Assembly: GCF_005938225.1 (NCBI RefSeq)
Contig: NZ_VCPC01000004.1
Coordinates: 310,001 to 374,000 of the forward strand
Direction: 5' to 3'
DNA: 64,000 bases
DNA from: Arenibacterium halophilum
GTDB lineage: Bacteria > Pseudomonadota > Alphaproteobacteria > Rhodobacterales > Rhodobacteraceae
The position numbers were made by a program, and so were the translations under genes. The notes beneath the pieces were generated by a model. It searched no databases. It saw only the letters and a list, made by a program, of their open reading frames with translations, and was not told where the DNA came from. Shown here piece by piece: positions 308-34,190 of this stretch (the first letter of the stretch is position 1; every line of letters begins with the position of its first letter).

Positions 308-754
308 CTAGAACCGTATGACCACCGAAAACACGATCACGACCATCAGAAGCGTCGGCAGCTCGTTCATCATGCGGTAGCGACGAGCAGAAACCGTGTT
401 GGTTCCATTCATCAGGTCTTTGCGACGCCGGCCAAGCCAGTGATGAAACCATGTCATGCCAAGAACGCCGGCGGCTTTGGTCCAGGGCCAGATGCTGCTC
501 CAATTCACCAGCCCGGGCGTGAACACGAGAAAGAGGCCGAACACCCAGGTTGCAATCATCGCAGGATTCATGATCGCCCTCAGCAGGCGACGTTCCATCA
601 CCTCGAAGATCGAAGGCAACTGATCCTTGTCGGCCTGTTCAACGTGATAGACGAACAGCCGTGGCAAATAGAACAGCCCTGCCATCCAGGCGATGACCGA
701 GATGATGTGAAGTGCCTTCGTCCAGGGATAGAGCGAGATGAGGAAATCGGTCAT
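308..754 (-). CDS. hemJ: Protoporphyrinogen oxidase HemJ
   Basis: A 148-residue membrane protein with four predicted transmembrane segments (about residues 15-35, 60-80, 87-105 and 130-147). The family oxidises protoporphyrinogen IX to protoporphyrin IX in the penultimate step of haem synthesis, in the inner membrane, in bacteria that lack HemG and HemY-type oxidases. The conserved histidine sits at residue 16 in the first helix (ALHIISVIAWMAG), followed by the LPRLFVYH segment and the GxxxW-type motif near residue 97. The length is normal for the family. It is transcribed towards rho, away from the candidate origin, and its start lies at the edge of the AT-rich gap. Confidence 0.92.
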   Translation of the reverse strand: MTDFLISLYPWTKALHIISVIAWMAGLFYLPRLFVYHVEQADKDQLPSIFEVMERRLLRAIMNPAMIATWVFGLFLVFTPGLVNWSSIWPWTKAAGVLGMTWFHHWLGRRRKDLMNGTNTVSARRYRMMNELPTLLMVVIVFSVVIRF

Positions 755-769
755 GTCGGGCCTCGTGGT

Positions 770-1159
770 TCAGCCCGGCGTATCAAATAATATATAAAGA
801 AAGAAAGAAGGATTATGGTTTTGTAGAGATCCCCGGATCCGGTGGATAACTGGGTTGTCCCGCGATTTATACATGATTTGCTGACGTGAACAAAAACGTG
901 TTGTCAGCACAAGTATTTACACTTTTCTTTTAAATAACAAAAGGTTGTGGGTTTGATAAAGGGTAGCATCTTGTGGATAAATCGGGAAAAACCTATCGCC
1001 AATCCCCTATCCACATGCCTCAGGTTTTCCCAATCCACCGAAGTAAAAACCGGGAGGGCGAGTGGGTGAACGCACGAACCCCGGGATTGGTTGCACAGAA
1101 AGCCAAATTCTCCGAAAAACTTACCCAAGTCTTAACGACAAATCCCGAGGTTCATCCAC
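770..1159. other. Candidate chromosomal replication origin (oriC)
   Basis: No gene fits in this gap of about 400 bp. It holds one perfect DnaA box on the reverse strand at 972-980 (reads TTATCCACA) and three one-mismatch boxes: 841-849 (reverse, TTATCCACC), 1007-1015 (CTATCCACA) and 1152-1160 (TCATCCACA, running into the maf start codon). AT-rich tracts at about 781-830 and 915-945 could serve as unwinding elements. The chromosomal origin of several alphaproteobacteria (Caulobacter, rhizobia) lies in this haem-gene/maf neighbourhood and not next to dnaA. The region also contains divergent promoters for hemJ and maf. The assignment is an inference from boxes plus context. Confidence 0.72.
1121..1136 (+). 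promoter_or_regulatory. CtrA-like box in the candidate origin
   Basis: The sequence TTAC-N7-TTAAC differs from the CtrA consensus TTAA-N7-TTAAC by one base and lies 24 bp before the maf start codon, inside the candidate origin. One-mismatch matches of this kind are expected a few times by chance in a window of this size, so this is only a candidate. Confidence 0.3.
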
Positions 1160-1759
1160 ATGGCTGCCCACATCGTCCTTGCCTCAGGTTCCGAAACGCG
1201 CGCCTCAATGCTGCGTAACGCGGGGCTCGTCTTTGATATAGAACGTCCGCGCGTGGATGAAGAGGCCGCCAAGGCCGGGCTTTTGGCCGAACAGGCGCGC
1301 CCGCGGGACATTGCCGATGCCCTGGCCGAAATGAAGGCACGTAAGGTTTCGGCCCGCCACCCCGGCGCAATGGTAATCGGATCCGATCAGGTGCTGGATT
1401 TTCAGGGGCAGCTTTTATCGAAACCAGACGGCCCGGATCACGCGATCGAGCAGCTGTCCGCACTGCGGGGCCAACGCCACAGCCTCTATTCTGCCGCAGT
1501 GATCGTGCAGGACGGCGCGCCGATCTGGCGTCATGTCGGGCAGGTCCGGCTGCAGATGCGGGATGTCAGTGACGCCTATCTGTCGGCCTATGTCGCGCGC
1601 AACTGGGAGGATATTCGCCACAGCGTCGGGGCCTATCAACTGGAACGCGAAGGGATCCGCCTGTTTACGGCCATTGACGGCGATTACTTTACAGTTTTGG
1701 GTATGCCCCTGTTGCAGGTACTGAATTTTCTGGCGTTGCGGGGGGATATCGAGACATGA
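1160..1759 (+). CDS. maf: Maf-like nucleotide pyrophosphatase
   Basis: A 199-residue protein of the Maf/YhdE/YceF family, which hydrolyses non-canonical or modified nucleoside triphosphates to monophosphates and so keeps them out of nucleic acids. The N-terminal ASGSETRASMLR motif (S-x-S-x-x-R), the VIGSDQVL segment carrying the catalytic aspartate near residue 75, the LLSKP motif and the SVGAYQLEREG segment are all present. The ATG at 1160 follows a DnaA-like box directly. It opens an operon with aroE, with which it shares an ATGA start/stop overlap. It cannot be assigned to dTTP/UTP or m7GTP specificity from the sequence alone. Confidence 0.9.
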   Translation: MAAHIVLASGSETRASMLRNAGLVFDIERPRVDEEAAKAGLLAEQARPRDIADALAEMKARKVSARHPGAMVIGSDQVLDFQGQLLSKPDGPDHAIEQLSALRGQRHSLYSAAVIVQDGAPIWRHVGQVRLQMRDVSDAYLSAYVARNWEDIRHSVGAYQLEREGIRLFTAIDGDYFTVLGMPLLQVLNFLALRGDIET

Positions 1760-33998: not shown

Positions 33999-34061
33999 CG
34001 TCGGATACGCCCTCTCAAATCGCAAAATTCACGGGTCACCGGACACTCTTCAAGGTCTGAG

Positions 34062-34152
34062 TGATCCTATGATCCTATTGTTTTCAGGCGGTTACCCTAT
34101 CGGGGTGATAGTATTATTTTCACGGTATCAATTTTAATTGACATACTATCAA
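34062..34152 (+). promoter_or_regulatory. Control region of the catabolic operon with TetR operator A
   Basis: The 192-bp gap before the hydrolase gene is AT-rich. Operator A is TTGACATACTATCAA at 34138-34152, fitting the palindrome TTGAYA-N3-TRTCAA found again at 42689. Further half-sites GTGATA (34105-34110) and TATCAA (34126-34131) lie upstream, and a 9-bp inverted repeat (34106-34114 with 34143-34151) spans them. A tandem GATCCTAT duplication is at 34063-34078. The operator TTGACA also resembles a -35 box, so a bound repressor would block RNA polymerase. Confidence 0.7.
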
Positions 34153-34190
34153 ATAAAGTGTCACTTGGTCGCCACGCAACGGAGGGGATC

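Follow-up and report, generated by a model that had tools for sequence, protein, structure and literature searches.

A probable chromosomal replication origin between hemJ and maf in Arenibacterium halophilum

The 405-bp intergenic gap between hemJ and maf (positions 755-1159 of the window, no strand assigned) is very probably, judging from sequence, the chromosomal replication origin (oriC) of Arenibacterium halophilum. Computation establishes at this locus a cluster of DnaA boxes, a trough in GC skew, parS sites, conservation among relatives and synteny. The window is the whole 64-kb stretch of DNA that was analysed, corresponding to bases 310001-374000 of contig C10 (480,990 bp) in a genome of 4.63 Mb on 15 contigs. 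An origin between hemJ and maf had been proposed in the initial annotation, and the proposal is well supported by the skew, the parS sites, the conserved boxes and the position of dnaA 81 kb away; the details added here are an IHF-like site (935-947), an AT-rich tract (781-814), a strongly conserved element (807-829) and, in relatives, the fusion of a DnaA box to the maf start codon.

On its left the gap is bounded by hemJ (308-754, minus strand), which encodes the protoporphyrinogen oxidase HemJ and scores above the cut-off of NCBIfam TIGR00701, and on its right by maf (1160-1759, plus strand), which encodes a Maf-like nucleotide pyrophosphatase and matches NCBIfam NF002690 (E 6.7e-59) and TIGR00172 (E 4.4e-31), neither match reaching its curated cut-off. 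The genes hemJ, aroE, coaE, dnaQ and secB were found above curated cut-offs in HMM searches, and the order rho-hemJ-gap-maf-aroE-coaE-dnaQ is the conserved cluster that marks an alphaproteobacterial (Cori-type) origin. The boundary genes of the Cori type, hemE and COG1806, do not flank the hemJ-maf gap: hemE lies on a separate contig (C9:341865-342872), and a COG1806 gene (PF03618) could not be found in the A. halophilum genome. Since hemE has another location and the kinase gene is absent, hemJ and maf have become direct neighbours. The initial annotation had argued from several alphaproteobacteria whose origins lie near haem genes and maf and not near dnaA; the argument from haem genes holds for hemJ and not for hemE, and dnaA is on C10 at a distance of 81 kb. 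According to PMC3794950, maf is among the indicator genes listed for Ori-Finder; a literature search for oriC together with hemJ found no paper. The DnaA family is matched weakly a second time, at C9:59665-60000 (23.9 bits against a cut-off of 23), perhaps by an Hda-like regulator.

Four DnaA boxes are present, one perfect and three with a single mismatch, exactly as first described, and the last of them does run into the maf start codon. Box 1, TTATCCACC (841-849, minus strand), is R1-like and adjoins the AT tract, and in relatives it mostly reads TAATCCACA or TAATCCACG; box 2, TTATCCACA (972-980, minus strand), matches the consensus exactly; box 3, CTATCCACA (1007-1015, plus strand), has one mismatch; and box 4, TCATCCACA (1152-1160, plus strand), also with one mismatch, ends on the A of the maf ATG. 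A degenerate box position, TTATACATG (867-875, plus strand), has two mismatches in the window. Repeats inside the gap are short only, with box pairs among them.

Where 17.6 matches to TTATNCACA at up to one mismatch would be expected in the whole window, there are 12, and four of the 12 fall inside 320 bp; since the total is below expectation, the four gap boxes do not come from a general excess. Across the genome, TTATCCACA is matched 305 times at up to one mismatch and its reversed control 467 times, so that the DnaA box appears to be rather avoided genome-wide. The genome-wide rate of 0.026 boxes per 391 bp gives a Poisson probability of about 2e-8 for at least four boxes, or about 2e-4 over all windows, and none of 2000 dinucleotide shuffles of the gap reached four (mean 0.11). 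Within the 1.71 Mb scanned, comprising all of C10 (481 kb) and samples of the other contigs, there was no second 391-bp stretch with at least three boxes. The shuffles, the Poisson rate and the 1.71-Mb scan rule out a chance cluster; DnaA boxes are clustered in the gap beyond chance, as they are in a bacterial oriC.

Conservation was assessed in relatives drawn as the best 80 of 360 Maf loci in a genome scan, the majority of which have titles that name Ruegeria, Sulfitobacter, Shimia, Tateyamaria and their kin; two loci (L073 and L094) with no readable hemJ were left out of the gap counts, which refer to the other 78. The maf start of the relatives was taken from the tblastn match, and offsets are shifted where that match begins at residue 5. 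Maf was also searched for in 193 genomes belonging to the class; the matches, in 181 of them, served for places only. The gap measures 351-444 bp in the 78 relatives and contains at least one DnaA box in every one, mostly at fixed offsets; at least two boxes occur in 72 of the 78, against none in eight control stretches (77-80 loci each), which consist largely of coding sequence and have a lower AT content than the gap. At the aligned positions, a box with no more than one mismatch to TTATCCACA stands at 841 in 42 of 78 relatives, at 867 in 20 and at 1152 in 74, the last of these being the best, whereas none of 300 column shuffles gave more than 12; the position of box 2 (972) is a box in 54 of the 76 relatives without an alignment gap there. 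Box 3 is not conserved, being present in fewer than 8 of the 78 relatives. By plain DNA similarity the gap is found in just seven of 295 family genomes, its own included, which shows how quickly it changes away from its conserved blocks.

Among the aligned box positions, the one at the maf start is occupied most often: of the 74 relatives with a box at 1152-1160 (at most one mismatch), 72 have it fused to the ATG, and its sequence variation is mostly confined to the first three positions, as in other DnaA boxes. In two Ascidiaceihabitans loci (L087 and L090) the box is perfect although maf has its nearest in-frame ATG a short way downstream, and four loci (L100, L111, L112 and L118) retain maf with no box, at up to one mismatch, at its start. 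Box 4 thus seems to be kept for its own sake, consistent with an origin, and origin function alone can explain its conservation, since it is intact off the ATG in L087 and L090. A dual role, compatible with oriC, in which the same box would let DnaA repress or time the transcription or translation of maf, is possible but on balance doubtful: the box sits on the maf ATG and a simple scan found no sigma-70-like promoter, nor any terminator, but the four loci just named keep maf without it. Far less probable is that the boxes mainly form a DnaA regulatory or titration site for maf and hemJ and no origin at all. The overlap of box and start codon in 72 of 78 relatives would fit such a site, which nevertheless leaves the skew trough, the parS sites, the IHF-like site, the AT tract and the conserved layout unexplained, and the box is intact in L087 and L090 even though the maf ATG is downstream.

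GC skew had been put forward with the first proposal as an observation that could contradict it, through a minimum far from the gap. Within the limits of a 15-contig draft, in which skew was read contig by contig and not as a full circle, the cumulative trough of C10 lies at about 310-323 kb and the hemJ-maf gap at 310.8 kb, so that the proposal stands. The cumulative minimum (-4583) falls at 323,298, about 12 kb to the right of the gap, and the value is already -4539 at 311,000; between these points the trough is flat. On C10, negative skew prevails between 170 and 310 kb and positive skew between 325 and 384 kb, and a single-step fit places the change at 311 kb for the whole contig, at 323 kb for 110-380 kb and at 340 kb for 0-380 kb. 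Near 140 and 445 kb the sign also changes from minus to plus, on a smaller scale; the second of these changes closes a stretch of negative skew in the right arm (about 384-445 kb), which is possibly an inversion or an island. The other large contigs, as sampled, are mostly of one sign, with smaller switches: skew is negative in 18 of 20 samples of C1 and positive in 15 of 20 samples of C8 and 12 of 14 of C9, and C8 and C9 show local dips. At the end of C8, from about 1210 to 1370 kb, the sampled skew of this mostly positive contig turns negative (-0.144 at 1280 kb), possibly as the terminus side, an inversion or another replicon.

Because the contig order of the genome is unknown, two relatives with megabase contigs, which are not known to be closed, were checked in addition. 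In Ruegeria pomeroyi SZCCDBG043 (40 samples of 20 kb) the best skew splits are at 292 kb and 2.24 Mb; the minus-to-plus switch occurs between the samples at 195 and 292 kb, and the locus is at 199 kb, in a sample of mixed skew (-0.067 left of maf and -0.004 right of it). In Sedimentitalea nanhaiensis (20 samples, denser near the locus) the switch from minus to plus comes between 2.48 and 2.59 Mb and the locus is at 2.50 Mb, the other arm being noisy. The gap is located, then, at a GC-skew minimum in a draft assembly, and two relatives have their switch at or near the locus.

Chromosome segregation sites point to the same place. Two exact copies of the parS palindrome TGTTTCACGTGAAACA are present in the genome, one at C10:305,666, 5.1 kb ahead of the gap, and the other at C10:307,567, 3.2 kb ahead of it; both lie within the few kilobases expected of an oriC, and no further parS is found anywhere in the genome at up to two mismatches. 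The reversed control also yields two sites at up to two mismatches, and it is therefore the exactness and the place of the real sites that are telling. Each of the eight relatives searched whole has just two parS sites (at most one mismatch), beside the locus, with none for the control, and 78 of 80 relative loci have a parS 3.5-3.8 kb before the Maf match. Among the genes at parS, a profile search found rho, mnmE, mnmG, rsmG and parB above curated cut-off, and a parA-like gene nearby with matches below cut-offs.

These data bear on two other placements of the origin. Many bacteria have theirs beside dnaA, which would make the gap a secondary DnaA-binding locus, and dnaA is indeed on the same contig, 81 kb from the gap; yet there is no box with up to one mismatch at C10:225-235 kb, the skew remains largely negative across dnaA and onwards to 310 kb, and parS is at the hemJ-maf gap and not at dnaA. 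Boxes, skew and parS together rule out an origin at dnaA, to which we give practically no credence. Equally negligible is the chance that the origin moved to C9 with hemE, its usual alphaproteobacterial neighbour. Published alphaproteobacterial origins do adjoin hemE, as described in PMC1914354; on C9, however, skew is positive in the samples either side of hemE, the only perfect box (perfect boxes being those considered) is 110 kb from it, and no parS is present, and on these three grounds the hemE location is ruled out.

Between boxes 1 and 2 lies a putative IHF site, TAACAAAAGGTTG (935-947, plus strand), with one mismatch to WATCAANNNNTTR. In this column 48 of 79 rows match at up to one mismatch, eight of them exactly, and the next best positions in the alignment reach 11 rows (overlapping 935-947) and 9; an IHF site is a feature of Cori-type origins, and the predicted one here would supply it. 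Another conserved block (1025-1036, plus strand) reads TTATCCTTRTCC in the relatives' consensus and TTTTCCCAATCC in the window, with columns 1025, 1026 and 1028 conserved in 78 of 79 rows and 1030 in all 79; it may be a weak DnaA site or belong to the maf promoter. CtrA sites are a mark of the Caulobacter origin. A scan for the exact consensus TTAA-N7-TTAA found none in the window and 10 in the 79 sequences, and CtrA control through exact consensus sites is not supported for the window. GANTC is not enriched either, with none in the window and 117 in the 79 sequences against about 126 expected from a rough composition estimate, and the search for structured RNA gave one Rfam match, of 15 bits against a cut-off of 45.

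AT-rich tracts, also listed in the initial annotation, are real. The tract at 781-814 (no strand) is 82% AT and A-rich in relatives, and it is a candidate duplex unwinding element adjoining a box, as expected in an oriC; few 50-bp steps in the 64-kb window are as unstable as the one from 781, which is on par with a step near 34108. The latter belongs to a very AT-rich, unstable stretch at 34052-34171, equal in instability to the AT tract of the gap.

Between this tract and box 1 is the strongest conserved block outside the boxes (807-829, plus strand), with single columns conserved in up to 79 of 79 rows. The consensus of the relatives is AAAGGATGATG-N-TTTTGTA-GGG, from which the copy in the window has diverged. 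Of the 295 family genomes, 29 contain an 18-mer core of the element, allowing one mismatch, and 5 contain its reversed control; the genome of A. halophilum is not among the 29 because its own copy has diverged. Of the seven among the 29 that could be placed, six have it at the hemJ-maf locus (G005, G070, G106, G219, G265 and G209), and in G293 the core is on a different contig from maf, perhaps as a chance match.

The element stands where DnaA-trios would be sought, for which PMC8287927 gives the rule of at least three.A. trios within 16 nt of a box, and PMC6669920 the consensus 3'-GAT-5'. Anchored on box 1 with a spacer of up to 16, the window has a run of one, short of the three required, and 22 of 79 sequences comply, below the rate in shuffles (52%). 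With a spacer of up to 30, trio-like runs appear in 78 of 79 sequences, the mean run being 5.5 against 3.3 in shuffles, and 74% of the shuffles reach three as well, a comparison confounded by the A-rich tract; the window itself has a run of four at spacer 24, two of the four on consensus. Canonical DnaA-trios beside box 1 are rejected on the published spacer rule, and we therefore call the GATGATG repeat of the element trio-like, off consensus, and do not call it trios. As a speculative suggestion, which we think more likely wrong than right by some way, the conserved stretch at 807-829 of the window (consensus AAAGGATGATGNTTTTGTAGGG in relatives) may be an opening element specific to the lineage of roseobacter-type origins, its repeat off consensus and its spacer longer than in DnaA-trios, and may serve as a variant DnaA single-strand landing site or as the site of a novel initiation factor, in a lineage mostly without consensus CtrA sites.

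If the hemJ-maf gap is the origin, initiation might proceed as follows. DnaA-ATP would occupy boxes 841 (minus), 972 (minus) and 1152 (plus), together with further weak sites, and IHF bound at 935-947 would bend the DNA between boxes 1 and 2. From box 1 a DnaA complex or filament would grow leftwards across the conserved 807-829 element and open the AT tract (781-814), presumably the unwinding site, where the helicase would be loaded and from which two forks would depart to give the locus its origin activity. The new origins would then be passed to ParB for segregation through the parS sites 3-5 kb off, beside mnmE-mnmG-rsmG-parA-parB. The probable origin of the A. halophilum genome is in this way narrowed to 405 bp with a checkable anatomy common to roseobacters, a marine group whose origins, in the papers cited below, are predicted ones; the 807-829 element and the box fused to the maf ATG are concrete, mutable targets.

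Origins of 101 Rhodobacteraceae strains were predicted with Ori-Finder in PMC6699656 from DnaA boxes, nearness to parAB, skew and a local GC minimum, and in PMC6209633 the predicted origin of Paracoccus yeei is intergenic and AT-rich, close to parAB and distant from dnaA. The gap in A. halophilum resembles these in its DnaA boxes and its nearness to parAB, and the origin of P. yeei also in its distance from dnaA; unlike here, the text of PMC6699656, tables apart, does not use the words maf or hemE and names neither hemJ nor maf as a neighbour.

This alphaproteobacterial gene cluster has been proposed in PMC4741004 as a guide to origins, and those of Caulobacter and Rickettsia prowazekii lie between hemE and COG1806, as given in PMC1914354. 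Cori of Caulobacter crescentus, in the hemE/COG1806 gap, is like the A. halophilum gap in being intergenic and in having an AT-rich tract, several DnaA boxes, one IHF site and conserved neighbours, going by the descriptions in PMC1914354 and PMC4285127, and its reported box types TGATCCACA and TAATCCACA are present in the relatives of A. halophilum too. It differs in that hemE of A. halophilum is elsewhere, a COG1806 gene was not found in that genome and the window has no exact CtrA site.

In Sinorhizobium meliloti we take the origin to be the gap between hemE and the kinase/pyrophosphorylase gene. The record CP090106 has the order mnmG-mnmE-rho-hemJ-hemE, then the gap, in which the record is cut, and then kinase/pyrophosphorylase-maf-aroE-coaE-dnaQ. 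The order mnmG-mnmE-rho-hemJ ... maf-aroE-coaE-dnaQ is shared with A. halophilum, and the S. meliloti gap has three boxes (at most one mismatch), but it is flanked by hemE and the kinase/pyrophosphorylase gene and its box layout is different. The record itself (CP090106.1; loci L246 and L247), 3.72 Mb long and labelled plasmid pSymB, carries rho, hemJ, hemE, maf and dnaQ and looks like the S. meliloti chromosome wrongly labelled pSymB; HemJ matches in the plasmid collection number 22 records.

In oriC of Escherichia coli an AT-rich tract is followed by an R1-like box, an IHF site and further boxes. The hemJ-maf gap has the same order of AT tract, R1-like box, IHF-like site and more boxes, IHF in E. 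coli oriC being described in PMC4285127; unlike E. coli oriC it adjoins maf and hemJ, and the likeness noted is one of layout. The predicted origin is of the kind expected for roseobacter-like bacteria: it belongs to the known alphaproteobacterial type, in which the origin lies within a rho-hemJ-(hemE)-oriC-(kinase)-maf-aroE cluster, with its neighbourhood slightly rearranged.
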